Below, in pieces: positions 11,717-63,959 of a stretch of DNA of 64,000 nt. The stretch comes from Bolinopsis microptera. Its lineage: Eukaryota > Ctenophora > Tentaculata > Lobata > Bolinopsidae. Below the pieces are notes generated by a model. That model made no database searches. It saw only the letters and a list, made by a program, of their open reading frames with translations, and was not told where the DNA came from. The position numbers and the translations under genes were made by a program. Numbering within the stretch: position 1 is the stretch's first letter; every line of letters starts with the position of its first letter. The stretch lies in assembly GCF_026151205.1 (NCBI RefSeq), contig NC_087081.1, forward strand, positions 10,727,113 through 10,791,112, written 5' to 3'.

Positions 11717-12039
11717 TTAAATTCCCTGACCACTTTGGTGTTGTTCGTGATCCTCACTCCCCCTGACACCACGACACATCGTCCCATGCTGATGCTGCAA
11801 CATGTTGTCCCGTCTACTGAACCGCCTTCCACAGAACGTACAAGTGAAGGGTTTCAGACCCAAATGTACTGATCTGATGTGCCGCTGAAGAGTACCAGGG
11901 CAGGCACTCAAAACTTTACTACAGCGTGGGCATTGTTGCGTAATGTTGGCTCGACCACGGGGGACGACGGGAGCGAGATAAGGGTAGAGGTTAGAACTAG
12001 AAGAAAAGTTTTGAGCATAGTCTTGTTGTAGAGTCGTTC
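11717..12039 (-). CDS. Terminal module 1: two-finger C2H2/C2HC exon
   Basis: Follows acceptor TTTCCTCAG and opens with GA then codons; 106 residues to the stop. A low-complexity lead (QNFSSSSNLYPY) precedes finger 1 (CPRC then RHIRSVH) and finger 2 (CTFCGRRF then H-x5-C, so C2HC-like). A second AG at 11,997 would give the wrong phase, so the upstream acceptor is preferred. An AATAAA lies about 10 nt beyond the stop. This is the leftmost module found; nothing comparable was seen to its left, so it is probably the most distal tail. Expected role: sequence-specific DNA binding in the nucleus. Confidence 0.8.
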
Positions 12040-13732
12040 CTGAGGAAATTGGAGGAATTTAATTTTAATAGAGCTTATTTTATACGCTTCAGAGCATTTA
12101 TTGATTACTATATACTGATAGTGATAGTACAATTTAAATTTCAGCCTTTGTTCAGCTTCAGTGAGTATTTCAACAAGACGGTAGACTGATTAAAATAGGT
12201 TGTTATTAGAGACTTTTTTACGAATTGTAGTCGCGAAAGTTGAAAACAATTGTGCAAAAAATATGCTTAAATTATCTGCTTGTGCCACCTTGCTCATTGC
12301 TGAACTGGGTTTGTACCAGTAAAACAAATATATAAGTGCTATCAATGAAAATGTGAATGTTATAAAATTTCGGCAATGAAATCTTTTTAAACAAATATGT
12401 TAATGTTGGTGTAATTACGTATACGCAACCAAAATTCGGCATGGTGTACGGCATTACAATTACAAACTTTAAATATCATTTTACGAGGCATACAGCAAAT
12501 CGTAACCAAATTGCAAGTTTAAATTTAAAAGTAAAACATAGGATGCATAACGATCTAGGCTTCGAAATCTCATAAACGTGTTGATATGATAAAATAATGA
12601 TGGATTATTTTTTCTAAATTCAGTAGTGCAATATTTAATTAGGTAGTGCGCCATCGACAGTGAGCCGCGCGTGCCGACTGTAGGATGGTTTTTTAGCGCT
12701 AATTTCGGCCAGCACAATTTTCTTCAAACAAATAGATATTAAGTGTTCTTCCCGACCTCCGATTGCAACAAAAATTGGTAAGCTTACTCATAGACTTACA
12801 AGGAAAGTGTCCGAAAAGTTTAAAGCATATCCAACCATCAGACATTATGTTACAGCTAAAAGCAGCGTATTTTGCTCCATTTTGATCACTATATCAACTC
12901 CGATATCCACCAAATTTTTCGGACAGTTGTGAAAGCCCTATTGGAAGGTCTTCGCCAATTTTCAGAATGATCTCATTCAAGGAACTGAAGATATATCCAA
13001 ATAATACGACAAAAATCAACGAATTTGGTCAAATTTGGTCAAATTACGCGAGTTTTACAGCTAATTTTGCTCCAAAAGCCGCGCACCATCAAATATGGCA
13101 TCTAGGCGAAACTCACTGATCTTTCCAAAAAAGTTATGACAAATTTAGTATTGTGAAAATTCTCACAGTCTCTAGAAAACAATGGTACAAAAAATTTTAA
13201 AATCCGAGCAAGTTTATTTTTATGGTGCACCCCCTAATTTAATAATAAATAATTACACATTTCTTATTAGGGCCAGTTACGAACAAAGCATATTGTAATA
13301 TTTTAATAATAAATAATTACACATTTCTTATTAGGGCCAGTTACGAACAAAGCATATTGTAATAATAATATAAATTATCAGAATACTAATCGACCCTTAA
13401 ATTTTAAACTTAGGTAATATGTACTAATTGGCACTAGATATAAAAACTATACCGTTTACTTTTCTTATTTTACGGCGCGTTATAAAGGGAGAATACTGTA
13501 CAGAAAAAATATACTCGCTAACGATTTCTACTCAGATCCGAAAACGTTAACTTATAAGTTTAACCTTAACTTAAAATATTAAATTAACAGTCAGTTTCTG
13601 TTCTTGCTATTGCATTGTCTCTGCTCTGGAGTCTAGCATATGTGTGTCCCGATGAGAGACGATACCAGTAACCAGGCTGAGCACCTGGTCCCTCTCACTA
13701 CTTTCTTCTTAGTGAGAGAAGTGAAATATTAT
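12040..13732. other. Spacer without recognised gene
   Basis: AT-rich DNA. A direct duplication of about 64 bp sits at about 13,237-13,364 (AATAATAAATAATTACAC and following bases repeated once). Short ORFs at 12,272-12,717 show no domain. Nothing else recognised. Confidence 0.6.
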
Positions 13733-14012
13733 AAGTTGAGCAGCTTGTCCCACAGCTACTAAGTTGAGCAGCTTGTCCCACAGCTGCTTAGTTGAGCAGC
13801 TTGTCCCACAGCTGCTAAGTTGAGCAGCTTGTCCCACAGCTGCTAAGTTGAGCAGCTTGTCCCACAGCTGCTAATTTGAGCAGCTTGTCCCACAGCTGCT
13901 AAGTTGAGCAGCTTGTCCCACAGCTGCCAAGTTGAGCAGCTTGTCCCACAGCTGCTTAGTTGAGCAGCTTGTCCCACAGCTGCTAAGTTGAGCAGCTTGT
14001 CCCACAGCTGCT
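13733..14012. repeat. Minisatellite, about 10 copies of a 27-28-bp unit
   Basis: The core GAGCAGCTTGTCCCACAGCT repeats about ten times with CTAAGTT or CTTAGTT joints. The right edge abuts the stop codon of module 2, so repeat DNA starts directly where coding ends. Confidence 0.9.
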
Positions 14013-14113
14013 AAGGGATCGTGTACCACGCTTTCTTTGCTGGAATTCCCCGGAAGGCCTCTGTGTGAAGCTTGACCATGTGATTACGTCGGTGACCGCT
14101 CGTTCCAAACGCC
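14011..14113 (-). CDS. Terminal module 2, second part: rest of finger 2 plus tail
   Basis: Starts after acceptor TCTCAACAG. Its first G completes the codon left open (AA) by the upstream part at 14,479-14,593. Together they give a finger that begins CFFCEK and continues AFGTSGHRRNHMVKLH, a perfect match to the family. A 13-residue tail rich in basic and aromatic residues follows, then TAG at the minisatellite border. This is the only module found to be split by an intron. Confidence 0.75.
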
Positions 14114-14213
14114 CTGTTGAGATAAGAGTTATTAATTACGGCATCAAAAAGAGTCGAAAAATAATTTCGATCAATAGTTCAAGGGGGCTATATTTATGAG
14201 TTGCATTTGAACT

Positions 14214-14392
14214 TGATTTCTCTTGGAGAATTTCTCTTTACACTCTTAACTTGCGAACAAATTGAAGCAGCAGACTTTAAGCTAGAAACTTTCTATTCAA
14301 CTTTCTATTCAATAAAGTTTCTAGCTTAAAGTCTGCTGCTTCAATTTGTTCGCAAGTTAAGAGTGTAAAGAGAAATTCTCCAAGAGAAATCA
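14214..14392. repeat. 79-bp inverted repeat (hairpin) in the module 2 intron
   Basis: Arm 14,214-14,292 is the inverse complement of 14,314-14,392, apparently without mismatch, separated by about 21 bp. It starts TGATTTCTCTTGGAG and ends CCAAGAGAAATCA. It lies inside the 364-bp intron that splits finger 2. It could be a young foldback transposon or an assembly or cloning palindrome. Confidence 0.9.
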
Positions 14393-14478
14393 TGATTTCG
14401 ATCGTTTAAAATTGTCATGTCCGCCTCAAAAAGGTGTAGAGATTACTCAAGAATTTAAAATATCAACTTAGCACTTAC

Positions 14479-14593
14479 TTTTCGCAGAAGAAGCACTTGT
14501 AAGGTTTCAGTTTAAAGTGAACGGTATTCTTGTGACGTTGGAGTTGAGATTTGGAGACCCATTTGTAGCACAAATCGCACATCTTCGACTCCC
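14479..14593 (-). CDS. Terminal module 2, first part: finger 1 and start of finger 2
   Basis: Acceptor ATTTTCTCAG, then GG and codons. Finger 1 is CDLC then QLQRHKNTVH, followed by FKLKPYK and CFFCEK. The frame runs straight into GAAAA|GTAAGTG, a consensus 5' splice site in which an unspliced reading would hit TAA at once. Using the donor and the acceptor at 14,113 restores a complete second finger in frame. If unspliced, the isoform would end after half a finger. Confidence 0.8.
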
Positions 14594-15684
14594 CTGAGAA
14601 AATAATAATTGTTAATTTTAACTTGAATCCTACTTGAATAATAAGAGAGCTTATAATTTAGCAATTATTACTACTATGTATTAGGCTTCGTTCGATTCCT
14701 TCCATAACGTATTGTGTTATTCAACATGTATAGCTACCAAATTATTTTTATTCAGTCAACATATTAGCTAAAATTCTTTAACTTATTTTTGATAAAATAA
14801 TTTATCTTCCTGAGCATTTAAACTAATTTATTTTTAAATAATATGCAACAAAATATCAGGCTTATTTTCTATTTTAATTCGTAAAACCAAGCAATCAGAC
14901 ATATATTTTAAGGTAACCTTAAAGTTAAACAGAGTATAATATTTCATAGATAACAGGTATAATGAAAGGAACAGATAAAATCAGAGCAGACAATAAAAGA
15001 GTATAAAGCTTCTGGAGTTATAAATATACGATTTTTAAAGTCTAAAAATAACTTTTGCGTGCAAAGAAAATAATATTTGAACGATTAAACTAAGAACTAA
15101 AACAGATAAAATTAAATTTGATCGCTCCATTAAATTTCTTAATGAATTAAAATAATACGGCAGAGGTTGAGGTTGCAGACATTTTACTACCCTGCCCATA
15201 AAAAAGGTTTTGAGGGCTAAACGTCATGGGAAGTGTCAACGAAACTGTCTCTGAAATTAATTATCAGTTCCAAGTTTGAAAGAAAATTTGGTAAACTATA
15301 GCCAGTAACTTAAATGAAATAAATCGAGAGTATTCCATATTCTTAAATTGATGATAACATCTTCACTTTTAAAAACAAAATAACAGCAGAAATAATCACT
15401 CTTTTAAATAGAAACTCACAGCGGTGAACAATTAAAATAATTATCCCTAATCCCTATTCAGAAACTCATCACAGAAAAAAAATGTTCAATAAGTTACATA
15501 TCGTCCAACGAAACCCGAAAATATAAATAAATCTCTGTAGCATAGCTCGACAATACAGCTCAGATTTATCCCACGACCATGAGTGCTGAGTTTAATTTCT
15601 TCGGCAACAAATAACATACAGCCATCAATCAGGAGTTTACAGTCTCTGACATTTATTATCCCAGCGATTCGTTGAGTCCAGTTT
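14594..15684. other. Spacer without recognised gene
   Basis: AT-rich (roughly three quarters A+T by eye) with poly-A/T runs. No finger, homeodomain or repeat array seen. Confidence 0.6.
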
Positions 15685-16334
15685 TCACTCTTGATGCATC
15701 TCAGCATGGTCAATTTGCTCGGTTTTTATAGTTTGAGACAATTGTGAGAGGTTGATCTCAAAGTCAATATTGTCTGCATCAAATGGCCCAAACTCCATCT
15801 CGTCCATGTCATTACTAGCACCACCATCACCCTGCGTTATAATATCAATCTCTCCGTCCTGACTGACATTCAGCTCGGTCTCCGTCGCTTTACTTCTTGA
15901 TCTCTTGTTCTTAAAGTATGTCTTAATCTGGTTCATCTTGAGGCCGGTCCTGGCCATGATAACCTCACAGTCATCCACCAAAGGGTACTTTGACTTGGCA
16001 TAGAACATGTCAAGAATAGCCTTTGTGTCGTCATCAAAATAGTTATTAGCAGTAAACTTGGTGGCGGATAGAGTTTTAGGAAGCGGGTTGTTCCTCCGTA
16101 TCCTGTATCTCTGAGCAGGGGTCATGTCTCTCAAGCCTCTCGCTGTCTTGTACTCCTCATAAAGTGAACAATACCATAGGTTCTGTAGGTCAGGCTGGTG
16201 AGCTGCACTGAAGTAGCTGGAGCGGAGGAAGAGGCGGAGTTTGGACCATCTTGCCGCTGAGTAGAGGGACTTGGCGTGAGAGTAAGCGGTCAGCTGACTG
16301 GTCGTGCTGGTAGCAGGGATACGGTACGGCAAAC
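15685..16334 (-). CDS. Terminal module 3: divergent SIX-like homeodomain exon
   Basis: Acceptor CCCCTCCCCGCAG, then GT and codons; 215 residues. Residues 10-90 resemble the C-terminal half of a SIX domain: LQNLWYCSLYEEY and AQRYRIRRNNPLPKT correspond to LQxLWxxAxYxE and KYRVRRKxPLP of the SIX family. Residues 95-150 form a homeodomain ending MNQIKTYFKNKRSRSK. The helix-3 Asn is kept, while the usual Trp of WFKN is Tyr. The last 60 residues are strongly acidic (DMDEMEFGPFDADNIDFE), suggesting an activation region, and contain IKTE, a fit to the SUMO consensus. An alternative is a stand-alone SIX paralogue gene, but no start codon or 5' exon is visible. Confidence 0.8.
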
Positions 16335-17157
<823 letters not shown>

Positions 17158-17449
17158 CATAGAGTGTCAACTGGAAACTTGCCAGTGAAGTTCTCATCAC
17201 GCTGCTTTATGCAATGATGAGTGATATGGATTTTTACTTCACTACATCTTCACATACGATAAGTTCAAGTCCTGGAAGTAATTCGTTTCCTTCAAGTAAA
17301 AATCAAAATATTAAAGTCATGTTCCTTTTCTAAAAATGTAATATAACCCACTGGGCCACTCAGCTGATCTACTCACAGACAACCTATCCACCATTTCCAG
17401 ATTTCTCGTCTTGACTCGGGTTTTGAAGTGCATCTGAAGTGCTCCACCA

Positions 17450-18031
17450 TGAGGCATGATGACTTCTCCTTTTATGGGATCCACGACAGAGCAGAAAGGC
17501 AGCTTCTCGTTGGATATATATCATTCGTATCCATTTCATTCCTAATTGGGGACACGCTCATCTTGGTTGGATCTGTGAGATTCAATGCCAAAAAGCTCCA
17601 CACTGTTCAGTGTTCCGGTTATCTTCATCCGCTATATTGCAGCTGCAGATTTACTGCTGACATTTTCCAGTATTTTACCTGCCGCAGTGTCCTTGGCTGC
17701 AAATGAGTGGATCCTTGGAGACTTCCTATGCTATCTTAATTTCTTTGGAAGATGTAGCAGTGCCCTACTAATCTGCCAGCTGTTTGCTGCTCTAGCTTTA
17801 TCCAAGATGCTCATCGTCAAATATCCTCTGAGAGCAATCCAATTCTCCGGAAAAGCTGCTCATCTTGTAGCTGGCAGCATGTGGTTTTATAGCTTTATCT
17901 TCCCAGCTGCAGCTATTGCTAGAGATAAAGGTGATGTTTACTTCACCTACACAGTCTATAATTGCGATCATGACTGTTCCTGGGGGCATGGAGATGAGAG
18001 GTCTGGGGAGCGGAGAAGATTGCTGGACTGA
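17450..18031 (+). pseudogene. Class-A GPCR-like remnant (TM1-TM4), frameshifted
   Basis: From ATG at 17,450 one frame gives an extracellular start and TM1 (LLVGYISFVSISFLIGD then LILVGSVRF). About 17,595-17,625 the reading must shift by one base to continue into TM2 (VIFIRYIAAADLLLTFSS), TM3 (FGRCSSALLICQLFAALAL, with SKM where DRY normally lies) and TM4 (AAHLVAGSMWFYSFIFPAAA). After YNCDHDCSWG the frame becomes hydrophilic and stops; TM5-TM7 are absent. It is the only host-type ORF on the plus strand and is probably an inserted or retroposed receptor fragment unrelated to the array. The receptor subfamily is not recognised. Confidence 0.65.
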
Positions 18032-18960
18032 ATTACAACTATTGGTAGAACAGCTGCTGATGAACGTGAGAAAAGGACTATAGTTTTAATATTTCGTGAA
18101 CGATCCAGATCAATTACATATACTTATTTACATTACTATTTAAATTGTAGAATATACGATGTAATATTGGAAACTCGAAATCAGTTTAAGAAAGTACTTT
18201 GCGTTTGAACGCTCTGTAACGAAGTGTAATCTTGTCGATAATACCACATTGCATACAACTGTTTTATATTTTTGATTCAATAGTAAATTACTTTACATTA
18301 CAGACATTGCCTATTAAAGTTTTCGTTATACTTATTGCAGTAGTGTTTAACGTAAGCTCCTGAGATATCACAATCAGGAGCAGGAGATTTGTCATATCAA
18401 ATTACTGGTGACCGATTCTTCGATTTATATTTTTTTAACAGATATGATGAACACTGTTAGTGTTATTTTGTACTCCTAGTATTTTCAATGGAATCTGAAC
18501 AAAAAAACAACTATGCAATTTACAAGGGATAAGGATTGTTAATAGTGCGTTTAATAAGCGTGTGCTAAGTTTCAGCGTATTAATCGTGTGTAAATTGAAT
18601 ACTGTGCAGTGTGCGTTAACAGTGCGTCAACCGTTAACAGGGCAATTCGTATATGTCTGTCGGGCGTGCATCAACAGTGTGGTTTAAGTCTTCAACGACA
18701 AATTACTAAAATTACCCGTAGGGGGCAGCTCATGGGAGCCTTAACGGCAGATCGGATAGTTCAAACTGAAAAAGTTACTTATTTCTGGAGGTGTTTAGAA
18801 CTTTAATCTTAAATTTAGAGTCTGAGGTAAAACGTTTTGTGATAAAAAATAGAATGTTAACAATTAACCCAAAAGTGATATATCTGTACCGGGCCGGAAC
18901 ATTAAAACTCAAGAAATGAAATAACAGCGGTCAGTGGTCTCTAGTCTCGCATCCTTTATT
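18032..18960. other. Spacer without recognised gene
   Basis: AT-rich DNA between the GPCR remnant and the 26-bp minisatellite. No module and no ORF with a recognisable domain. Confidence 0.55.
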
Positions 18961-18984
18961 TAAATTAAAAGTAGCGTCGTTCCG

Positions 18985-19432
18985 AGGGTAACCGAGTTAC
19001 GGTTACTACGGGGGTAACCGAGTAACGGTTACTACGGGGGTAACTGAGTAACGGTTACTACGGGGGTAACCGAGTAACGGTTACTACGGGGGTAACCGAG
19101 TAACGGTTACTACGGGGGTAACCGAGTAACGGTTACTACGGGGGTAACCGAGTAACGGTTACTACGGGGGTAACCGAGTAACGGTTACTACGGGGGTAAC
19201 CTAGTAACGGTTACTACGGGGGTAACCGAGTAACGGTTACTACGGGGATAACCGAGTTACGGTTACTACGGGGGTAACCGAGTAACGGTTACTACGGGGA
19301 TAACCGAGTTACGGTTACTACGGGGATAACCGAGTTACGGTTACTACGGGGGTAACCGAGTAACGGTTACTACGGGGATAACCGAGTTACGGTTACTACG
19401 GGGGTAACCGAGTTACGGTTACTACGGTTACT
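18985..19432. repeat. 26-bp palindromic minisatellite, about 17 copies
   Basis: The unit centres on GTAACCGAGTAACGGTTAC, itself a small inverted repeat (GTAACCG and CGGTTAC arms), joined by TACGGGG. Copies differ mainly at GAGTAA versus GAGTTA and GGGGG versus GGGGA. Each unit could form a hairpin. Confidence 0.93.
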
Positions 19433-20104
19433 AACCCTTGCCAGATCTCAAACTCTTACCTATCCTTTAATTCTGACACGTAATTCAAAAGGGAAGGGGC
19501 AAGGAGTTCTACCTGTGGCTACCTATGGGGCTATAAGTATACATTCTCGGTAATGGAGCCTTAGCCAATAAAAATTAACGCCAGATCAGATTCAAACTTT
19601 AACAAAGCGCATCGGTGAACTCCATAACTTATACTTGTTATGCAACTCCACAACTCATAGTTACACTATTCACAAATGGCACCGAGTCTCGGTGACCGAG
19701 GTCACGATAGTGTAAAATGGCTCTCATAAAACTTTCTGTCTGTGTTATTACTACAGCTGTAAGATAACAGCTCTCAGCCAGAGTGGCCACTTAAAGGTGG
19801 TCGGAGCCATGGAAATATAATTAAAGAATGAACCGGTTAAGTTCTGACCATCATCATTTGGCGGTCGCGCGCTACTGCAAGCGAGAGGGAGATGGTTAGA
19901 GCAATCTAACCATCATCATTTGCATGTTCAACTTAAACACGCAAACCATCAGTGGTAATTAACAATTTCACTCTCAGTTGTAATAATAATAATACACTTA
20001 ATATCACATGATCAGTTCTCTTAATCACAGTAATAATTAGTTTCACTTCTAGTTCTAATATCAAAGTTATAGTTTGTAGTTGTCCTTGTTGACACCACTT
20101 ATCT
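19433..20104. other. Spacer without recognised gene
   Basis: Mixed sequence. The words CTAACCATCATCATTTG and GACCATCATCATTTGG occur about 60 bp apart (about 19,846-19,925). No module seen. Confidence 0.5.
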
Positions 20105-20358
20105 AGAAACGGAAGGTGCCCGGTGCGTTACTTTTCTTTTTGAACACCACTTATCTAGAAACAGAAAGTGCCCGGTGCGTTACTTTTCTTTTTGAACACC
20201 ACTCATCTAGAAACGGAAACTGTCCGGTGCGTTACTTTTCTTTTTGAACACCACTCATCTAGAAACGGAAAGTGCCCGGTGCGTTACTTTTCTTTTTGAA
20301 CACCACTTATCTAGAAACGGAAAGTGCCCGGTGCGTTACTTTTCTTTTTGAACACCAC
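20105..20358. repeat. About 51-bp tandem repeat, five copies, overlapping the end of module 4
   Basis: The unit includes ATCTAGAAACGGAAAGTGCC and CGGTGCGTTACTTTTC. On the minus strand one unit encodes the last codons of module 4 (FKKKSNAPGTFRF) and its TAG. The four further copies lie downstream of the stop, so the exon tail was amplified. Confidence 0.9.
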
Positions 20359-20558
20359 TCCATGGATACTCCTTTCGTGAGAGTTCCTGTTGTAGCTGGT
20401 ACCAAAGTACTTTTCACAGAACCTACAGGGGTGGGGTTTAATCTTGAAGTGGACTAGATTCTTGTGTCGTTTAACGTCCAACACGGATTTGTTGCAGATG
20501 TCACATGTTTTGGAGACAAAAACTGCAATGTCTTTGTGGCGCATGCTGAACACCAGCC
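20311..20558 (-). CDS. Terminal module 4: two-finger C2H2 exon
   Basis: Acceptor TCATCTTTCAG, then GG; 81 residues. After a lead with SMRHKDIAVFV come finger 1 (CDICNKSVLDVKRHKNLVH, only nine residues between the second Cys and first His) and finger 2 (CRFCEKYF then NRNSHERSIH). The C-terminal tail and stop lie in the tandem repeat. Finger 2 belongs to the GNRxxHExxVH subfamily of modules 5 and 10-15. An upstream ATG-like frame exists but crosses the acceptor and is intronic. Confidence 0.87.
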
Positions 20559-20663
20559 CTGAAAGATGAAGTAAAAGTAGTAAAATGGAATGGTGATTAA
20601 TTTTTGGATTTGTTTTGTTCTCGTTGACAGTTAGCAAATAGAAGATTCAGAATAGATTTGCTT

Positions 20664-20830
20664 AGGGGTCGTTCACATATTAGACCTAATCACTTTTTGG
20701 CCAATTTTTAACCCCCCTCCCCCCTCCGTAATCAGTTTTACACATAGCTATTGTGTCAAAATTACACTTAGCGTAATCGTTTGGAAACCCCCTTCCCCCT
20801 CGGCTGATTACGTAATATGTGAACGACTCA
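20664..20830. mobile_element. MITE-like palindromic element, copy A
   Basis: The left end GGGTCGTTCACATATTA and right end TACGTAATATGTGAACGAC are inverted. The interior has pyrimidine- and purine-rich stretches (CCCCCCTCCCCCCTCC; CCCCTTCCCCCTCGG) and TGTGTCAAAATTACACTTAGC. It shares these with copies at 24,105 and 34,728. About 165 bp, noncoding. It sits about 100 nt into the intron upstream of module 4. Confidence 0.8.
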
Positions 20831-53505: not shown

Positions 53506-53534
53506 AAAGAATTATAATCAAGAAAATTATAAGC

Positions 53535-54222: not shown

Positions 54223-54680
54223 CTGAAAGTGAAAGTGAAAGTACGAGCAGAAAGTGAAAGTGCAAGCTTAGAGTGGAGGGTAAAATGCGATGAAGCTGGA
54301 GGTGAAAGTGGAAGTTATTTGTTTCAGTAATGAGTAATCGATATGAAGTTGTCAGGGTGCGACATTATCTTGCCCTTAGTGGTAAGCCTAGTGATTATAA
54401 CCGGATTTAAATTCAAATTTCATCTTTTCATAGTTCACACGAAGGCCGCATACATGTGACCAATAACCGTCATAACTTTTCATCAAAAATTAATAAAAAA
54501 GTTGATCATCAAGTAACGTCCACAAAAAATCAAGATATTTACGAAATGTAATTGAAATCCACTTGAAATAAGCAGTTTCGTACCAAGGATCAGGGCTCAA
54601 TACTTAGCAGTCTCTTAGATTAAGTAAAATTTTCCAATTAAAATCAAACAATGTATCTAGTATAATCCGTTTTGAGGAAT

Positions 54681-54991: not shown

Positions 54992-55568
54992 CTAGGGTGG
55001 GGTCGTTAGAGGTGGGTGGTGGTGTAGTGGTTCAAATGATCGTGGATTTTAAAGAGAAAAGTGAAGATATAAGTAAAATTGGCCGGAGAGCATTAAGAGA
55101 GACGTGATTAATTAAAGTACAACCGTTTAACTTTTCTAACTGGGCAGTTTAAATTTAAGGGGGGAAATTACGATTATAGTTGCTAAGCCGTTAAATTCTT
55201 GGTAAAATCAAACCAATTTTTCAAAGAATTCAAACAAAAGTCAGACCTCATAAATATAATATTTTTGAAACGAATATGCCACTCAACCATATAAAAATAA
55301 TGTTAATATCTCTCATGAAAACACGGTGCACTAAGAGCGGGTGAGTTTTCTCTGGGCCATACGAACATTTTCCACCTGTCGAACGTTGCCCTCACTCTGA
55401 TAGCGCTCAAGTTCTTATGAGACATCATTATCCGAAATCAGTCAAATTAGTTCAAATAGTCCGGGTAGTTCCAACTATTCCAGCTGAACCGTTCCACAAC
55501 CGTTCTCAACCGTGCTCAACAGTTCCACTTATTCCACTATTCCAGCTCAACAGGTGGACTTATCCCAC

Positions 55569-55804
55569 TTACAGTTTACAGTTGCCATGAACTGGTCTCC
55601 CCTCCCTGTTCCACTCAGTGAGCTCACTCTGGTGTTTCATCTTCATGTGGGAGTACATGCTCCCACTCTGGGAGAACATCTGGGAGCAGAACCTGCACTT
55701 GACCCGTCTTATCTTCAGGTGGACTGTGTCTATGTGCCGTTTCAGGACGGAGGTGGAGTAATATCGCTTGTTGCAGGTTCCACAGATTAGGTCAGGGGGG
55801 AGAA
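55569..55804 (-). CDS. Terminal module 41: two-finger exon
   Basis: Acceptor CCGAATTTCAG, then TT; 77 residues. LPPDLI, CGTCNKRYYSTSVLKRH-DTVH, linker LKIRRVK, CRFCSQMFSQSGSMYSH-KMKH, tail ELTEWNREGRPVHG. Its stop TAA is followed by GTGGG. Paired with module 40 by the SGSMYxHMK helix. Confidence 0.88.
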
Positions 55805-56277
55805 CTGAAATTCGGGGAGGTTTGGTAATTACCTAGTCTGATTACACGAGGTATTTCTAAATGGTTGATTATTAATTTGCCTTTGTATGATTCGACATAG
55901 TAGTTATAATGAATGATGCCGCTTAAATTACTGAGTTAAGAAAATTCAAGCGTTTACAAAAATTGAGGTAATAACGGGGAATGGACATGAAATACTGAAA
56001 TATGGCAGTATCCAAGGAACAGGAGCTGGTCCGGGGACTGGTGACATAATGTTATATTTTATGTTTAAGCGTAGATTTAATGCCATTGCCATAGGCGGAT
56101 CAGATCAGATTGTCAATGGTTTTAATGCTTAAGTTTCAGATTTGACTTCGTGAAGATTCTATTGACTTATTGTAATGATGTTCGCATTGTCGAAGTTCAG
56201 TTTCAATAAATGAAGCGTAGGTGTTAGATAAGTCCAACTAAAAAATAAGAAAAATTGTTTATCAGATGAAAAAACAG

Positions 56278-56615
56278 TCAAGACAAAGGTAGGAGCTTCT
56301 TGTCTTCTCTCATCTGTTTTGCAATCTGAGAGAACATTTTGCTATCTGAGAGGTAGCGTCTGCACTGTGCGGACAGCTGAGCCGAGCTTGTGAACTGTGC
56401 CTGGAGATAGTTGTAGTGGGTAGCATCCACCATCTTCATCTCCGCCATGTACCGCCACTTGTATAAAGATGTTCGTGACATACCAGCTTTTGCTACAGCT
56501 TTGTTGACGGATGTGCCGGAATAAACAGCCTTCACGATTAGAGGATAGTTCTGGTGAATTAGCGCTTCCATTCGATCTCCTCTAGTCTGCTTTGGTAGTG
56601 TGTCCCGAATGGGTC
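56278..56615 (-). CDS. Terminal module 42: helix-turn-helix-like DNA-binding exon
   Basis: Acceptor TTTTCATGATTAG, then GA; 111 residues without any Cys pair pattern. Residues 15-60 read MEALIHQNYPLIVKAVYSG then SVNKAVAKAGMSRTSLYKWR, the layout of a tri-helical HTH (helix, then AVAKAGMSRTSLYKW as turn plus recognition helix) like those in Psq- and transposase-type domains. The remainder is predicted helical and basic (QIAKQMREDKKLLP). No family is recognised with confidence. There is an in-frame ATG at 56,571, so an independent start cannot be excluded. Confidence 0.75.
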
Positions 56616-56859
56616 CTAATCATGAAAATAGTTAATAATATTGATTGTTTAAATATTGGATGATTTGAAAGTAATCGTCACTTATGGTGTGAACCTGCTC
56701 TGATAGTAGTAGTCTGCCGACTGTTTCACTGACTAATCTGCCAAAATATATTTTAAAGATATCAAAACAAACAAATTAATTGTAAATTAAACCTATACTT
56801 CATAATATCTACTGTCTTCTAATATAAAATTACAGTCTCTTTTAGCTGAGTCTCTGATA

Positions 56860-57036
56860 GTGATCAACCGTCACGTGGTTTCTGATAACCTCGCACGGTT
56901 TCTGATGACGCCACGTGGTTTCTGATGACGTCACGCGGTTTCTGATGACGTCACGCGGTTTCTGATGACGTCACGTGGTTCCTGATGACGTCACGCGGTT
57001 CCAGATGACGTCAAGCGGTTCCTGATGACGTCACGT
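56860..57036. promoter_or_regulatory. TGATGACGTCACGYGGTT array, about 8 copies
   Basis: TTTCTGATGACGTCACGCGG and close variants repeat at 21-22 bp, each holding TGACGTCA or a one-base variant. The array ends at the stop of module 43. Possible CREB/ATF-type sites; repeat expansion is equally possible. Confidence 0.6.
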
Positions 57037-57038
57037 GT

Positions 57039-57217
57039 CTACTCAACGCCATGTTTCGTCCTCATATGACATCGCAAGTATTCCCTTCTAGAAAACTGCT
57101 TTCTGCAATACCCACAAATATGTTTCCTTGACCTCTCGTGAACGGATGATACGTGCCTACTAAGCGCACTTTTGAAGGTGAAAGAGTTACCACAGATTGG
57201 ACAGTAGTAGAGTTGAG
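57039..57217 (-). CDS. Terminal module 43: two-finger C2H2 exon
   Basis: Acceptor TACCTCTTTTCAG, then CT; 58 residues. CPICGNSFTFKSALSRH-SSVH, linker ERSRKHI, CGYCRKQFSRREYLRCH-RTKH, ending GVE. The recognition helices are unlike any neighbour. Flanked downstream by the CRE-type array. Confidence 0.87.
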
Positions 57218-57805
57218 CTGAAAAGAGGTACTTACTTTAGGTGTTTAAGGGGTGTAGAGAATTTGACATTGCATTGTGGCGTTTTAATTTCGGATTCACA
57301 TTGTTGGGAAATAGTTCAGCTGCATTATGGCAGTTTTTTAGTTCCGGAATATTTCAATTTGGATAATATATGCTGGATAAAATTGATATTTATCAGTTTT
57401 CAAGTGTTGAGATAAATCACAAAATAAAAAAACTCTTATTAATATTATTTCAAAATAAAAATACTGGATAATGATAATAAAATACAACATCCTGAGTTTA
57501 ACAAATCTGTAAAGATAAACCATGCCAATACTCAATACTCCCTAGTACAAGTTATCTAATATCTAAGAAATTCTGTCTGATAATGTCTTTCTCAAACAAA
57601 TCAATAGGTCCACAATCACAGGCAAAACTACAATTGATTTTCCCTTGCTACGATTATAACAATAATGATAACATAACACATTGTTTTAAACAGCAAATAG
57701 TTCTGGAGTCTCATATATTCCGTTCTCATTTAATCCTAATATTGCTGAGTCAACTCCAGGAAAGAAAATCGGTAACATAACGTAACATAATGACGTAGAA
57801 TCCCT

Positions 57806-58044
57806 TCATTGTAAATAACCTTGTATTAATTTCCCGCATCTTTTCTTATGCCTACTTTTACCGGCAGAATGCCCGAACGTTTGTCCGCATATCTCACATT
57901 TGAAGGGTCTGAGGTGGTAATGAGTGGAACTGATGTGGCCTTTAAGGACGTCGCCCCTACTGAACCGCTTCCCACAGTACGGACAGGTCGGCTTGTGGAC
58001 ACTGTGACCTCGGAGTAGCTTGGCGCCGAAACCTGCCGGATTTT
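57806..58044 (-). CDS. Terminal module 44: two-finger C2H2/C2HC exon
   Basis: Acceptor AAGATTCTCTAG, then AA; an alternative 12 nt further in (AATCCGGCAG, then GT) also keeps phase. 78 residues: lead with FGAKLLRGHSVHKP, CPYCGKRFSRGDVLKGH-SSTH, linker YHLRPFK, CEICGQTFGHSAGK-RHKKRC, tail KLIQGYLQ. Confidence 0.85.
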
Positions 58045-58246
58045 CTAGAGAATCTTATCTTATTAGTGGATGTGGGTGATGATTTACTTTGAGATGACGC
58101 CATCAGTATTCAGTAACTTTATGTGGAGTAACTTTAGGTGGAGTAGCTTTTATATATTACCATGGGCCATTAAAATAAACGATTATATGAATTGAAGTAA
58201 AATCGCCAGATCAACTGATCCAATCAGGTATCAAAATATCGAATCA

Positions 58247-58302
58247 GGGCCAGTAAATAGGGCCAGTAACCAGGGCCAGTAAATAGGGCCAGAAAATAGT
58301 AA
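58247..58302. repeat. GGGCCAGTAAATA short tandem, four copies
   Basis: About 13-bp units with one ACC variant, in the spacer upstream of module 45's tail. Confidence 0.9.
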
Positions 58303-58472
58303 ATAAGTTGCAATTACCCCCACTAAAGAAGAGGCAAGGCGGTTAAGTTATCATTCTTTACATTACGCCGTCTTTTCATAGTCCATAAATGGTATTTATA
58401 ATAAGAATATCGTCACAATAGCAAGACATCGTTTTTCAAGTTAGCAGTAAAATCTCATCTCTAACAGAATGT

Positions 58473-58666
58473 CTACTCGGCAGCCTTCTTAAGGAGGATG
58501 TAATTCTTACACTTCTTCTTATGTCGGGACTTGCTGGACGAGTGGCTGAACTTCTGTCCACATACCTCACAGCTGAACGCCTTGAGGTGGTAGTGGGTTG
58601 AGATAATGTGGGCTCTGAGTAGCTCCTTCCGGGTGTAGACTTTACCACACAGGTGGCAAGAACGTG
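58473..58666 (-). CDS. Terminal module 45: two-finger C2H2/C2HC exon
   Basis: Acceptor CCCCTCCCTCAG, then CA; 63 residues. CHLCGKVYTRKELLRAH-ISTH, linker YHLKAFS, CEVCGQKFSHSSSK-RHKKKC, tail NYILLKKAAE. Strong match to modules 44 and 46. Confidence 0.9.
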
Positions 58667-58979
58667 CTGAGGGAGGGGTTTGTACAGTGGAGTGAGTAAG
58701 TAGTAAAAGTAGTGGAATGGGTTTCATGATTTGACCTTGTTAGTGCAGTGTGATTGTTATCTATCTCATATATCGTATCCACTCATCTAAAATATTAACG
58801 TTCTAAAATAAAATTTGATGAGTAAAAAGGAGACCACTAAATTTAGGTAACAGCAAATTAACTTCATAAACAAGCAAAAATCCATTATATTATTCAGCCA
58901 GCAAAATAAAACATTAAAATAAAACCGAGGGCCTGTCTTTGTCTTGTACCTCCACATTATGACACACCAGTCTACAATT

Positions 58980-59184
58980 GTTGATCTTTAATATTTAATC
59001 TCAGATACTCCCGACACCTCTTCTTATATCTTAACTTTGGTCTGATGACGTCACGTGGTGTTGTGATGACGTCACCAGTTTCTTAATCTTTGATATTTAA
59101 TCTCAGATACTCCCGACACCTCTTCTTATGTCTTAACTTTGGTGTGATGACGTCACGTCGTGTTGTGATGACGTCACCATTTTC
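58980..59184. repeat. Two downstream copies of the module 46 tail with TGACGTCA spacers
   Basis: CTCAGATACTCCCGACACCT with TCTTCTTATGTCTT occurs at about 58,999, 59,101 and inside module 46 at about 59,203. The copies are linked by GATGACGTCACGTGGTGTTG. The unit is about 102 bp, so the last coding stretch of module 46 plus CRE-type sequence was tandemly duplicated. Confidence 0.88.
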
Positions 59185-59405
59185 TTAATCTTTGATATTT
59201 AATCTCAGATACTCCCGACACCTCTTCTTATGTCTTGACTTGCTAGAAGCGTGGTTAAAGGCTTGTCCACATATCTTGAACATCTTCACTTTCTGGTGTG
59301 TCCTCTGGTGATGTGTCTGTAGCTCCTCTGGATCTGTGAAGGCACGACCACAGATGCGGCATACCATGAGCGTACCAAACTGACCAGGTGGGTATAAAAC
59401 AACAC
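59185..59405 (-). CDS. Terminal module 46: finger 1 intact, finger 2 lacking its first Cys
   Basis: Acceptor TCCCCTCATTTTAG, then GT; 72 residues. Lead VLYPPGQFGTLM, CRICGRAFTDPEELQTH-QRTH, then KVKMF-KICGQAFNHASSK-RHKKRC. Modules 44 and 45 have an extra two residues including Cys (AFSCEVCGQ), so a six-nucleotide in-frame deletion removed a zinc ligand. Confidence 0.83.
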
Positions 59406-60087
59406 CTAAAATGAGGGGAACAAATCGTTAGATTGGGGACGGCAGTGCGGGATTTTATGACGTCACGAGTTGTGATGACGTCACGTGGTGTTGTGATGAT
59501 GTCACGTGGTGTTGTGGGGAGGATGACGGTACGTGGTTTGGTGATTGTATTTACACTGCAGACATGTTAATATCGGGAGCAAAGTTGTGATAACATGGTC
59601 TTATCGAACGAACTAGCACATTATTTAGATACCGCAATGCCTTATAATTGCCCAATGAATGCCTCACAAATGGCGTATAAAGTTTTTAAACACTTGCACT
59701 CATAACCCTAAAAGATCAATCCAAACATATAAATTTCATAAACATGTGGAGGTAGCAAAAGGAACAACACCTAGCATAACTACTACTACGTACTACTACT
59801 ACTACTACTAGCATAAGCAATCAATATAGCGGGGTCCACAGTTAACTATCGTATTAAATACAAATAATCTGGTATTATCTAATCATTCCACATGCGGATC
59901 AACATTCTGCTCGAATAAAACTGACTGGAGCTGCCAAGCAGTTCCGACAGTCTGTACTCAGTTCATAGCCAAGTGACTGTTTTATTAGTTTATTGTCACG
60001 TGACTAAAATACTGCTTCTCTATTGGCTAGTTTGAGTCACGTAGCTAGAATACTGCTTTCTTATTGGCTAGTTGGAGTATCCCCGAT
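59406..60087. other. Spacer with CRE-type repeats and a (TAC)n run
   Basis: GATGACGTCACGTGGTGTTG copies at 59,458-59,520; CTACTACTACTACTACTAC near 59,783-59,812; GTCACGTGACT near 59,996 and a related GAGTCACGTAGCT near 60,034. No gene. Confidence 0.7.
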
Positions 60088-60335
60088 TTAAGCTCCTCCC
60101 CCAGACTCATAATAGTTATCCCGACATTGCTGTACCCTGTGATCAGGATTCTCTCTCTTGTGTTGAGCGTACGCTCTAGCATGCATCCTTTTCATGTGTT
60201 TGATCAAGTTCCCACTTTCTCCGGCTCTCATGTCACAGAAGAAACACTTGTAAGGACGTTTACAGAGGTGTTTGATGGCGATGTGGCGGCGTAGAGAAGC
60301 TCGACACGTGTACGTCTTGTGGCAGATCTGGCAAG
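60088..60335 (-). CDS. Terminal module 47: two-finger exon with long tail
   Basis: Acceptor CGTTCCCTTTCAG, then CT; 81 residues. CQICHKTYTCRASLRRH-AIKH, linker LCKRPYK, CFFCDMRAGESGNL-HMKRMH, then a polar tail (YAQHKRENPDHRVQQ) ending SGGGA. The second finger has Ala-Gly in place of the usual aromatic core position (CDMRAG rather than CxxxF). Confidence 0.87.
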
Positions 60336-60734
60336 CTGAAAGGGAACGTGAAAGAGAAAGTGAAAGGAAAAGTGAAAGTGTAAGGCGAGGAGGACTCTTT
60401 GAAAGTGAGATATAGCGATCAAACGATGGCCTCTAAATTTTTAAAGCGAATTTAATTTATCATAATCAATATTCAACTTTGTTCTGGTTCTTGTCAATGA
60501 GGACTGGTTCTTAATGTCATGAAGAAAAAAAAAAATTTGCCTTCTTGATAAACCATAAAGAAAAATAATACCAATCATAATTATAACAAAATAGATTAAA
60601 AATAAATCAGACATTCAAACTTCTGACCATGTTATTGCATTTTAACTAGGACTTGTAAAGTAAACCACTTATATGTTTTACTTAACGACTTTTAAAAACT
60701 TTGCTAATTATTTGAACTTGTAACTTGGTTTTAG

Positions 60735-60968
60735 GCGTAACGGCACGTGGTTTTAGATGACGACACCGGATTAACGATGATGCCACGTGGTTTATGATTA
60801 CGTCACGTGGTTCATGATGACGTCACGTGGTTTATGATGACGTCACGTGGTTTATGATGACGTCACGCGAACTTTATATAAACTGGACGTCACGTGGTTT
60901 CAAATTCACACTACATTACGAGGCTTATGATGACGTCACGTGGTTAATTATGACGTCACGTGACTCAG
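60735..60968. promoter_or_regulatory. ATGACGTCACGTGGTT array
   Basis: Around eight copies of GATGACGTCACGTGGTTTAT or near variants, interrupted by unrelated sequence, in the spacer 3' of module 48. Densest CRE and E-box overlap in the window. Confidence 0.6.
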
Positions 60969-61027
60969 ACTCCCTCCGATAAATCACCTACAACACTGTC
61001 CTTCTCCTCAATAAACCCAAGATGACG

Positions 61028-61230
61028 TCATGTGAGCGTCTCCTCAACAAACCCATGATGACGTTTCATATGCAACTTCCTATTGTTATTAGTCCCGAAT
61101 GCTTTCTCACAGTAAAGACATTTGAAGCGGCGTATCTTGAAGTGGACCAAGTCCATGTGTCTTCGCAGTTTGTACTGGTTACAGGGCCGGTTACAGATAG
61201 GACAAGGCGTCATCTTGTAGTGCTTGCTCT
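61028..61230 (-). CDS. Terminal module 48: two-finger C2H2 exon
   Basis: Acceptor GACCATCTTCAG, then AG; 66 residues. CPICNRPCNQYKLRRH-DLVH (11-residue loop), linker FKIRRFK, CLYCEKAFGTNNNR-HMKRHH, tail GFVEETLT. It resembles the 10-16 block although it lies 30 kb away. Confidence 0.89.
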
Positions 61231-61485
61231 CTGAAGATGGTCATACTGAGCTAGAGGTAGGGTGCTAGGTTGTGATTGATTTGTTTATTGTTCGTACGTT
61301 GAGCGTGAAAATTAAATGTGAGTGTTAAATTATAGCTGTCTAATATTCAGTGGTTACATTCAGACCTTTTGTTGCTCTTTCTCGACAATAAGGTACGCCG
61401 GTACGGGTAAATAATAATTTAACTTCAAAACCGCCCAAAAGGAACAACTTTAAAACAATTTGAGGCTCTACGAATAACAATTCAC

Positions 61486-61715
61486 TTAAATATGGTCGTT
61501 CTGCTTAATGTATGCGTGTATGTGTCTCCGTCTCATGTGGGACTTCTTATTGCTGATTGTTCCAAATGTCTGGAAGCAAAAATCACACTTGTGAGGCTTT
61601 AGCTTAAGATGTACCAGATTGACATGATCGTTCAGATTGTGAGCATCTCCTACCAGCATTTTGGCGCAATAGGGACACTGGTGTCGTTTAAGTGGTCTTT
61701 GACTTCGCTTCCGGG
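61486..61715 (-). CDS. Terminal module 49: two-finger C2H2 exon
   Basis: Acceptor TTCAAATTTTAG, then CC; 75 residues. Basic lead RKRSQRPLKRHQ, CPYCAKMLVGDAHNLNDH-NLVH (13-residue loop), linker LKLKPHK, CDFCFQTFGTISNK-HMRRRH, tail IHAYIKQNDHI. Parent-like sister of the broken module 50. Confidence 0.89.
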
Positions 61716-62111
61716 CTAAAATTTGAATATAAGTGGCATGAACCATTGCTGTGACCAGTGATAGTGGTACAGATGCACATCAAACTCAAGATTTGGACTG
61801 GACTAGCGAAAGTATCGTTTATTTAAAGATCATAAATCATTCCACTCGTGTACACTGTACACATGTCAGCCAAATATATTATATACGACAAGAAAACAGT
61901 ATATTCACAGAAAATCATGTGGCGTCATTCAAACTGAACAGAGTTATAATCAGTGAAAAATACATCTGTACTAGTAGTAGACGTACTTTAAAATGTAACG
62001 TACAAGTACGTACTTTAAGCAAAGTACCGAACGTACTGCTTATCCAAGCTGTGTCCGTAGTTCACTGAATGTACTGAATGTATTGAATGTACTTCTTATA
62101 ATGATACTTCT

Positions 62112-62296
62112 TCATATGGTTTGTCCTCGCGCCCCACAGGCCACAATCCGAAGGTCTTCTCGCAGAATAACACCGATATTAGGCTTTAAGTTCAGATGTA
62201 CCAGATTGACATGCTCGTTCAGATTACAGATCTGCTTGGGACAGTATGGACATTGTGGTTTTTTTAATGATCTTGGGCATGATTTTCGTTTTAGGG
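62112..62296 (-). pseudogene. Terminal module 50: frameshifted two-finger exon
   Basis: Acceptor AAGACACCCCAG, then CC keeps phase. Finger 1 (CPYCPKQICNLNEH-NLVH) and linker LNLKPNI are readable and match module 49. The next Cys-x2-Cys region is disrupted by a missing base (TGTTATTCTGCGAG), and a second indel is needed before the NHMKK-type His region. As it stands the frame ends at 62,112 after finger 1. Either a decaying module or two consensus errors. Confidence 0.75.
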
Positions 62297-62462
62297 CTGG
62301 GGTGTCTTATCAACACGTGGGGTGTCTTCTTAACACGTGGGGTGTCTTCTCAACACGTGGGGTGTCTTCTTAACACGTGGGGTGTCTTCTTAACACGTGG
62401 GGTGTCTTCTCAACACGTGGGGTGTCTTCTCAACACGTGGGGTGTCTTCTCAACACGTGGGC
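62290..62462. repeat. 20-bp minisatellite, about 9 copies, derived from the end of module 51
   Basis: The unit AACACGTGGGGTGTCTTCTC (or TTA variant) is, on the minus strand, the coding DNA for the last residues of module 51 (HVLRRHPTC). The first unit is coding and the rest run on downstream to the acceptor of module 50. Confidence 0.93.
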
Positions 62463-62749
62463 CGTCTTATTACTCTTCGTCTTAAATATGGCATCACAAT
62501 AATCACACTTTACACAAGGCACCAAGTTCAAATGTTTCATCCTCATGTGGGACTTCCTGTTTCCCGTCGTCCCGAAACACTGGTCACAATAGTCACACTT
62601 GTACGGTCTCAACTTGAGGTGCACCAAGTTCACGTGTTCCTGGAGCTTGCTGGGGGATTTGGTTTGCTTGCCACAGTAGGAGCACTGGAGGTGATTGGTC
62701 ACTGGGTATGAGCCGGGTGACCAACGAACTGGATAACGAACGTACTGCA
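62430..62749 (-). CDS. Terminal module 51: three-finger C2H2 exon
   Basis: Acceptor CCTCTCTGGTCCACAG, then TG; 105 residues. Lead YVRYPVRWSPGSYPV, CSYCGKQTKSPSKLQEH-NLVH, linker LKLRPYK, CDYCDQCFGTTGNR-HMRMKH, spacer LNLVPCVK, CDYCDAIFKTKSNK-HVLRRH, ending PTC. The third finger's last helix is the seed of the adjacent minisatellite. Confidence 0.9.
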
Positions 62750-63102
62750 CTGTGGACCAGAGAGGGATTAGTGATGACGTCACATGGGTAATGCTGACGT
62801 CACGTCAGGGGTGGAGGTATTAATAGCTGATTATAATATGATGGTATGATGGTGAGTAGATGAGATTGAGACTGATTGCAGGCATTTATTTTGCTAAATT
62901 TTCTGAGTGTCTCTATTTACCTATTTCTTCGTGTCTTTAATTACAAGATAGATGATTAATCTTACGCAAACAAATAACGATAACAAATAATAAACAAACC
63001 GTAGCTTAGAAAATAATAAGATAATTATGAATAAGCATAAACTAATACTATCATAATGATAGAATAAGTCTGTAAAACAAGTCTACAAAAATGAGATATC
63101 GT

Positions 63103-63371
63103 TTATCGGGGAATATGCCTCCGGTCAGCAATAAATGTCCCTATCTGCTCCACCGTCATCTCGTGGGTGTAAGACAGATGGGACCTCAAATTGGTTAGCA
63201 CTGAAAACTTTTTGCCACACAGAGAACAAGAGTAACGCCAAATTTTGTGATGAACAATCTGGATGTGGGATTTTAGCTGTTTCTTGTGTTTGTAACAATA
63301 GGGACAAACTCCAGAGCTTAAACTTCTCGGGTTCACTGGGAAATCTTGTGGTCTGGCTCTGTTGGATCGGT
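63103..63371 (-). CDS. Terminal module 52: two-finger C2H2 exon
   Basis: Acceptor ATATTACCCCCAG, then AC; 88 residues. Lead RSNRARPQDFPVNPRSLSSG, CPYCYKHKKQLKSHIQIVH (nine-residue loop), linker HKIWRYS, CSLCGKKFSVLTNLRSH-SYTH, tail EMTVEQIGTFIADRRHIP. Nearly identical to module 53, including the intron sequence just upstream. Confidence 0.92.
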
Positions 63372-63379
63372 CTGGGGGT

Positions 63380-63475
63380 AATATAACGTCACGTGTGTAA
63401 TGATGACGTCACGTGGTTAATGATGACGTCACGTGGTTAATGGTTACGTCATTTGGTTGATGATGACGTCGGGTG
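63380..63475. promoter_or_regulatory. ATGATGACGTCACGTGGTTA array, 4-5 copies
   Basis: Units of about 20 bp with decay (ATTTGG, GACGTCGGG variants) in the intron upstream of module 52. The same repeat restarts at 63,970 upstream of module 53. Confidence 0.6.
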
Positions 63476-63672
63476 GTTAGAATTATGGAGTGATTTGAGT
63501 GTTGAACCCTAAGATTATTTATGCTGTCTTCACGCATGGTACATAGTAAAGCCAACTAGAGTTATGACTAAATAACTGAAAAGCTTATAATCTAATTTTC
63601 GGAGAAAACCACAGACAATCTTAAATCTAAATAATTTCCAACAAAAAGATACGGATATAAAGTCAAATTCTC

Positions 63673-63959
63673 TCATAGCGGGATATGTCTCTTTTCCTGA
63701 ATAAACCTCCCTATCTCTTCAGAACTCATCTTGTGGGTGCGCTGTAAATGAAACCTCAAATTGGTTAGCACTGAAAACTTTTTGCCACACAAAACATTAC
63801 CAAACATTAATGAACAAGAGTAACGCCAGATCTTGTGATGAACAATCTGGATATGGGATTTTAGCTTTTTCATGTATTTGAAACAATAAGGACAAACTCC
63901 AGAGGATAATTTTTTCGGTTTCACTGGGAAATCTTGTGGTCTGGCTCTGTTGGATCGGT
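63673..63959 (-). CDS. Terminal module 53: duplicate of module 52 with an insertion in finger 2
   Basis: Acceptor ATATTACCCCAG, then AC; 94 residues. CPYCFKYMKKLKSHIQIVH, linker HKIWRYS, then CSL-MFGNVL-CGKKFSVLTNLRFH-QRTH. The six residues MFGNVL, an 18-nt in-frame insertion, separate the two Cys of finger 2 and should abolish zinc binding unless spliced out. Tail EEIGRFIQEKRHIPL as in module 52. It is the closest module to the expected constant exons. Confidence 0.87.

Follow-up and report, generated by a model that had tools for sequence, protein, structure and literature searches.

The window analysed here (64,000 nucleotides, C10:10,727,113-10,791,112 of the 264.65-Mb assembly of the ctenophore Bolinopsis microptera; window coordinate = genome coordinate - 10,727,112) holds part of a long array of small DNA-binding modules, which very probably form the variable part of a single gene of about 110 kb whose shared N-terminus would be alternatively spliced to about 130 DNA-binding C-termini. 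According to this reading the shared exons A3-A2-A-B-C-D, coding for some 410 amino acids without a BTB domain, would end with the phase-1 donor of exon D, and this donor would be joined to one of some 130 acceptors further downstream, almost all of them in phase 1. The chosen acceptor would open a short exon that codes for a DNA-binding domain, in most cases two C2H2 zinc fingers, and ends the protein; other tails would bring in some helix-turn-helix (HTH) and FLYWCH domains and probably SIX-homeodomains. Such joints would be used at the C10 locus mostly as cis choices between alternative last exons. At the level of DNA sequence the proposal is supported by the array itself, its uniform strand and phase, the predicted shared exons, the conservation of exon C at the protein level, the excess of silent over amino acid changes among tails and a paralogue with the same joint.

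How far does the array extend? Profiles of the four domain types C2H2, HTH, FLYWCH and SIX, applied to the window and 196 kb upstream of it, detected 132 modules over about 107 kb (10,738,832 to 10,846,385), all 132 on the minus strand and comprising 121 C2H2, seven HTH, two FLYWCH and two SIX modules (hereafter the hidden Markov model (HMM) set). Within the window lie 51 of them and a further 81 outside, the array running 55 kb past the window, and on its other flank the same four profiles revealed no module in 20 kb. We consider "about 130" a fair count. For the window itself 53 modules are listed (Table 1), the same number and the same outer limits (11717 to 63959) as in an earlier note made from the letters of the window; 51 are in the stricter HMM set, from which 22460 and 62115 drop out. 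A text pattern for tandem fingers found 35 open reading frames (ORFs) in the window, 35/35 on the minus strand, and a profile built from these matched 48 window ORFs (E up to 0.5), again 48/48 minus; one of the 48, a weak match at 14014-14178 (E 0.056), lies outside the 53-module list. Among the window modules Pfam identified two FLYWCH ORFs and two ORFs with a SIX domain and a homeodomain. The earlier note had described more than 50 interchangeable terminal exons of a transcription-factor locus: the array is real and its tails are mostly C2H2, but the count was incomplete and the HTH, FLYWCH and probable SIX tails were missing from the description.

The second line of evidence is the splice phase. 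A module that opens with two nucleotides before its first codon (2-nt start) is in phase 1. When the best-scoring AG before the domain was chosen blind to phase, it gave a 2-nt start in 116 of 131 modules (89%; one further module has no AG at all), as compared with 402 of 1083 for non-module control ORFs of the same region (five draws, anchor distances drawn from the modules). The head start of the 2-nt class in this null (37%) arises, in our opinion, because an in-frame TAG excludes some 0-nt sites. The preference is found in the window (44/51 of the HMM set, 46/53 of the window list) and beyond it (72/80), and in 107/120 C2H2, 6/7 HTH, 2/2 FLYWCH and 1/2 SIX modules, so that the phase-1 start asserted in the earlier note is borne out over the whole array. 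Moreover, weight matrices that were trained on either half and applied to the opposite one returned 45/51 and 71/80, again 116/131, against nulls of 80/218 and 82/218 (binomial p 3e-14 and 3e-21), with 5/7 for the HTH modules. The acceptors follow the consensus TTTCAG/G (the slash marks the joint), with enrichment of T at -4 (60%) and G at +1 (42%); these two positions lie outside the acceptor-choosing score, and the training acceptors were chosen by our own score. An in-frame ATG of any kind between ORF start and domain is present in 35/128 modules, in agreement with the earlier observation that most modules have no believable start codon.

Directly upstream of the array and outside the window, six shared exons are predicted at C10:10,846,622-10,849,231 on the minus strand (Table 1), with a conceptual product of 410 amino acids that has a short conserved N-terminus and an acidic Q/S/P-rich middle. 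A search of 7.9 kb lying between exon C and the nearest finger modules yielded exon D as the one candidate that combines a 1-nt start with a phase-1 end at the thresholds used, a lower donor threshold adding one much weaker candidate, and among control 8-kb stretches of the array 1/13 holds such a candidate. Taken alone exon D could also be read with a 0-nt start and a 2-nt end; it is the phase of exon C and the paralogue described below that decide for a 1-nt start and a phase-1 end. The phase-2 donor of exon C, found at C10 and in the paralogue on C3, was also the reason to reject a direct joining of exon C to the tails and to drop the idea that a GGTAATG within exon C might be read in phase 1. 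Two proteins match exon C at 60% and 59% identity; they end in ..PGSSRGGDL and ..PGSSRGGEL, that is, at the point where the C10 exon C donor would be read through. At the 5' end a spliced leader may join just before the ATG of exon A3; this ATG sits right behind a strong acceptor (Table 1), as would be expected for the addition of a leader there.

The earlier note had anticipated, on the minus strand past position 64,000, a shared 5' exon with a phase-1 end, and predicted exon D, backed by the C3 paralogue, fits this expectation. The BTB or other dimerisation exon anticipated at the same place did not materialize, as a Pfam scan of the predicted 410-residue shared part found no BTB or other dimerisation domain and returned DUF7553 alone (E 0.22). 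In addition, a genome-wide BTB search (150 of 309 candidates scored) gave at least 148 matches, none of them near the array on C10, where the nearest listed match is at 11,389,020 on the opposite strand.

Further evidence for the joint comes from a second locus. NCBI protein models of the X type rest on RNA-seq, and one of them, 'uncharacterized protein LOC134813369 isoform X6' of Bolinopsis microptera (P0134), maps to C3 in five pieces, four of them 95-99% identical and the fifth, which spans a joint, 67% identical. P0134 has both the N-terminus and the exon C block of the C10 shared part, arranged alike, together with an identical A3/A2 junction; the exon C block is 43% identical (E 3e-16, genome search), and the middle is poorly alike. 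Read on the DNA of C3, exon 1 ends in phase 1, exon 3 (C') in phase 2 (ATG AT/GTAAGT), and a short exon D' has a 1-nt start and a phase-1 end (CCA A/GTAAGA), followed by an acceptor CCCAG/GT 130 kb away and then by the finger exon (CTTCAG/GA), both in phase 1. Among the matches listed, the C3 locus has at least 71 finger matches, which fall at no fewer than 60 distinct places and are all on plus, and in a 10-kb sample of it 14/14 modules were on the plus strand and 10/13 had a 2-nt start with the matrix trained on C10. The two loci thus have in common a homologous shared part, a short phase-1 linker exon, a tail with a C2H2 pair and a large same-strand array downstream. They differ in that LOC134813369 lies on C3, has one more variable exon, in frame, ahead of the finger exon and has a shared part that aligns partly. 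A single-sequence fold of P0134 reached a mean predicted local distance difference test score (pLDDT) of 42, with only blocks in residues 31-70 attaining 63-79.

The N-terminal exon (..EFHF..D..FL.FLLDTAVRVISI) occurs at seven places of the genome (E<=1e-3), and same-strand modules were found beside the three of these exons looked at (C10:10.85 Mb, C3:20.57 Mb, C10:11.56 Mb). The third and smaller locus, C10:11.547-11.558 Mb, looks similar to the first two, with the N-terminal exon and 3 same-strand modules in 10 kb, 2/3 of which are best at 2 nt. The loci on C3 and at C10:11.547-11.558 Mb add to the single-locus picture of the earlier note.

Several observations weigh against the splicing of one shared N-terminus to all these tails. 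All six shared exons at C10 are sequence predictions, as are the phase-1 joints there; together with a patchy paralogue match this limits the reading. BLASTP of P0134 against the shared part without A3 yields one clear piece of 63 residues (40%, E 1e-6), and none of the NCBI proteins of about 167-530 amino acids, or of 394-1253 amino acids (for the latter, the best 7999 candidates), was found to contain the C10 exon C. Another phase is preferred in 15/131 modules in the phase-blind scoring and in 15/131, partly other ones, when cross-validated. In the window list the seven with another phase are 22460, 28085, 33972, 36097, 53538, 57042 and the SIX ORF 31837, and 23127, 24742, 56281 (a tie) and 62433 leave the 2-nt class under other scorings. 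Donors at least as good as that of exon D are present inside the coding stretch of 15/128 modules (about 18.8 sites expected); donors in modules are thus near background and not clearly depleted. The earlier statement that only module 2 has a usable donor holds insofar as module 2 (14478-14657) does end in a GTAAGT donor and most modules have none. Moreover, AATAAA or ATTAAA follows the stop within 300 nt in 46% of cases, which is no enrichment over the 43% expected, so that separate poly(A) sites of the modules are not supported; of eight control loci with a long ORF 4/8 had a hexamer and three of the other four offered fewer than 210 bases for inspection, too few to calibrate. Finally, two of the 132 HMM hits are ORFs of less than 40 amino acids, and one of these two is a piece of an 85-bp repeat.

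Are the two SIX ORFs part of the array? Both have a SIX domain followed by a homeodomain according to Pfam, which places them in the SIX homeobox class, and SIX-1 matches the SIX1 chimera chain 4egc_A (1.8e-30). They are probably, not certainly, tails, the reservation being due to the wide scatter of SIX domains in this genome and to the frequency of nested genes in the ctenophore Hormiphora (PMC8527503). That the two are nested independent genes is accordingly a quite possible alternative, somewhat the less favoured of the two. In its favour, SIX-domain places number 24 over the whole genome, both array ORFs included, and the best AG of SIX-1 is by a hair the 0-nt one (10.3 versus 10.2 for the 2-nt acceptor). 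Against it, SIX-2 combines a good 2-nt acceptor with the absence of any ATG ahead of its domain, and in SIX-1 it is from the 2-nt acceptor onwards that BLASTP aligns a relative with 64% identity. Many of the 24 SIX-domain places are single open frames of 260-395 amino acids, which has the look of a homeobox-class expansion.

If the tails are joined to a shared part, the joining could in principle take place in trans, with the tails transcribed as separate short pre-mRNAs and attached to the pre-mRNA of the shared 5' part, as happens at mod(mdg4) and partly at lola of Drosophila. Trans-splicing is known at these insect analogues (PMC4667647, PMC1947980) and spliced-leader trans-splicing is abundant in ctenophores (PMC8527503). 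Against this, every module lies on the same strand downstream of the predicted shared exons, as cis-splicing needs, and the gaps between modules (median 392 nt) leave scant room for 130 promoters. The uniform strand favours cis joining, and trans-splicing appears unlikely here.

Alternatively, the modules might be ordinary tandem C2H2 genes and pseudogenes, their phase inherited from one ancestral exon and not used. For 83/130 modules the best relative is found no more than 3 ranks away, as compared with 4.5% expected for random pairs, indicating that the array grew largely by local duplication, and a common ancestor would explain a common phase among the C2H2 modules. The same phase is, however, also best in 2/2 FLYWCH and 6/7 HTH modules, domain types with no kinship to C2H2, and it agrees with the phase in which the predicted shared exons end. 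In addition, of 39 best-relative pairs with at least 58% identity 1 is identical and 23 are saturated at silent sites, and nonsynonymous divergence (dN) is lower than synonymous divergence (dS) in 15/15 others, those with a finite and non-zero dS. A tandem cluster of this kind is therefore very improbable. Among the 121 C2H2 modules, 42 have two strictly canonical fingers, and no two of these 42 carry the same set of eight base-contact residues, suggesting that the tails bind different DNA targets. Least convincing is a polycistronic array of independent small genes whose acceptors receive a spliced leader, for which speak the good acceptor before most modules and a leader on 56% of Hormiphora Iso-Seq reads (PMC8527503), but which is hardly tenable given that the published leader (that of Hormiphora; that of Bolinopsis may differ) contains no ATG (PMC8527503), that few modules offer the start codon of their own expected in an operon, that a non-coding leader would not force one reading phase and that the paralogue, in its NCBI model, has its tail joined to a shared coding part.

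Table 1. Predicted shared exons (genome coordinates) and array modules (window coordinates). C2H2 rows rest on finger profile and acceptor listing unless stated.
Feature	Position	Strand	Remarks
Exon A3 (predicted)	C10:10,849,231-10,849,071	-	ATG 13 nt behind strong acceptor
Exon A2 (predicted)	C10:10,848,680-10,848,585	-	
Exon A (predicted)	C10:10,848,410-10,848,293	-	
Exon B (predicted)	C10:10,848,103-10,847,857	-	
Exon C (predicted)	C10:10,847,465-10,846,894	-	donor phase 2
Exon D (predicted), 50 nt	C10:10,846,671-10,846,622	-	TATTTCAG/...CCGA/GTAAGT; starts 1 nt, ends phase 1
3' (distal) half of terminal-exon array	11717..63975	-	53 listed modules, 51 HMM
Module 1, C2H2 pair, 2-nt acceptor	11717..12039	-	Pfam and acceptor listing
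Module 2, C2H2, GTAAGT donor cuts second finger	14475..14593	-	acceptor and donor scoring
SIX-2, divergent SIX domain and homeodomain, 2-nt acceptor, probable tail	15685..16334	-	Pfam
C2H2 module	20311..20558	-	
C2H2 module, 3 fingers	21494..21807	-	
C2HC-like module	22457..22723	-	without good 2-nt acceptor, outside HMM set
C2H2 module	23124..23404	-	2 nt in list scoring, other phase in HMM-set and cross-validated scorings
C2H2 module	23822..24096	-	
C2H2 module	24739..24995	-	cross-validated best AG in other phase
C2H2 module	25841..26040	-	
C2H2 module	26924..27171	-	
C2H2 module	27568..27752	-	
C2H2 module	28082..28266	-	best AG (28282) in other phase in both phase-blind scorings
C2H2 module	28729..28928	-	
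C2H2 module	29230..29444	-	
C2H2 module, repetitive linker	29863..30293	-	
SIX-1, SIX domain and homeodomain, probable tail	31834..32684	-	Pfam; 2-nt acceptor 32684, near-tied 0-nt acceptor 32625
FLYWCH module	33239..33450	-	Pfam
C2H2 module	33969..34300	-	best AG in other phase in all three scorings
C2H2 module	34844..35097	-	
C2H2 module	35518..35774	-	
C2H2 module	36094..36347	-	best AG (36361) in other phase in both phase-blind scorings
C2H2 module	37309..37541	-	
C2H2 module	37876..38336	-	
C2H2 module	38825..39069	-	
C2H2 module	39507..39736	-	
C2H2 module, 3 fingers	40054..40373	-	
C2H2 module	43963..44252	-	
FLYWCH module	44841..45376	-	Pfam
C2H2 module	45798..45994	-	
C2H2 module	47056..47255	-	
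C2H2 module	47808..48061	-	
C2H2 module, 3 fingers	48857..49170	-	
C2H2 module	50929..51095	-	
C2H2 module	51455..51618	-	
C2H2 module, 3 fingers	52123..52556	-	several 2-nt acceptors
C2H2 module	52808..53022	-	
C2H2 module	53535..53725	-	best AG in other phase in both phase-blind scorings
C2H2 module	54020..54222	-	Pfam and profile
C2H2 module	54681..54991	-	
C2H2 module	55569..55804	-	
HTH module, CCDC106-like	56278..56615	-	below Pfam cut-off; 2 nt phase-blind, tie when cross-validated
C2H2 module	57039..57217	-	best AG (57234) in other phase in both phase-blind scorings
C2H2 module	57806..58032	-	
C2H2 module	58473..58666	-	
C2H2 module	59185..59405	-	
C2H2 module	60088..60335	-	
C2H2 module	61028..61230	-	
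C2H2 module	61486..61715	-	
C2H2 half-module, weak	62112..62305	-	outside HMM set
C2H2 module, 3 fingers	62430..62749	-	cross-validated best AG in other phase
C2H2 module	63103..63371	-	tandem duplicate of neighbour
C2H2 module	63673..63959	-	tandem duplicate of neighbours

Some other features accompany the array. An 855-amino-acid ORF on the minus strand inside it (41158-43722) has reverse transcriptase and endonuclease domains according to Pfam and is presumably a non-LTR retrotransposon. At C10:10,815,744-10,816,194 a repeat of about 85 bp on the minus strand contains part of a finger over and over in changing frames. On the plus strand, an ORF at 17579-18028 with a sub-threshold match to 7-transmembrane receptors (E 9.7e-7) is possibly a nested gene fragment, and three overlapping long frames at 49675-51099, strongly GC-skewed and with unusual Pfam matches, are more likely repetitive DNA than a gene. 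Upstream of the shared exons, C10:10,860,000-10,872,000 (minus) contains near-identical tandem copies of an ORF, which we take to resemble thrombospondin-type repeats. Four finger modules at C7:13,884,036-13,885,968 (plus) match the array neighbours 10,797,901-10,799,804 in the same order, with equal scores in three and nearly equal in the fourth, and probably represent a recent segmental copy.

How does the C10 locus compare with known systems? Two insect loci with BTB domains provide the best-documented cases of the design of one N-terminus with many tails (PMC4667647). At lola 20 isoforms, 17 of them with C2H2 fingers, are reported (PMC1947980, PMC11426971), and the likeness consists in one shared N-terminal part and many alternative terminal exons, mostly C2H2; unlike lola, the C10 locus has no BTB domain, is found in a ctenophore, has about 130 tails with HTH, FLYWCH and probably SIX among them, has paralogous loci, and its joining is predicted from sequence. 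For mod(mdg4) at least 31 isoforms are given in Drosophila and at least 40 in Danaus, with FLYWCH among the tails (PMC4667647). Shared 5' exons followed by numerous variable 3' exons, some of them FLYWCH, recur at C10, which differs in the missing BTB domain, the small share of FLYWCH (2/132), the position of all tails on one strand and the distant phylum. C2H2, HTH and FLYWCH tails are described as going with BTB domains in arthropods, and TTK-type BTBs are reported as not found outside arthropods (PMC11426971). Thus, of the features of lola and mod(mdg4) the one-phase array of terminal coding exons and the C2H2 and FLYWCH tails are present at C10, whereas the TTK-type BTB N-terminus and the arthropod descent are absent. 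Because the C10 locus lacks the BTB that defines this family, and TTK-type BTBs are reported from arthropods only, it is apparently a convergent analogue and not a member. The independence from the fly genes, one of the options given in the earlier note, is upheld; overall the observation behind that note is confirmed and its interpretation partly supported. No description of a ctenophore array of this kind was found in the open-access literature, judged by titles and abstract starts among the matches listed. CTEP1 and CTEP2, C2H2 proteins at chromatin loop anchors of Mnemiopsis, resemble the C10 products by description as ctenophore-specific C2H2 proteins (PMC12221973).

Some authors regard ctenophores as the sister group of all other animals. 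We lean slightly towards the wider view that ctenophores independently evolved a lola-like system with a BTB-free N-terminus, at least three paralogous loci, from a few to more than 100 tails and up to four unrelated fold classes, so that a handful of genes would supply a large share of the transcription factors of the lineage, possibly including CTEP1 and CTEP2. If true, the design of one N-terminus with many tails would be convergent and the BTB domain not essential to it, C2H2, HTH and FLYWCH tails could share one array, and the number of tails would be several times that of the insect loci. The factor repertoires of ctenophores would then have to be counted differently, as no NCBI protein was found for the C10 locus in the length ranges searched, and such loci would offer a testable source for the ctenophore-specific C2H2 architectural proteins.

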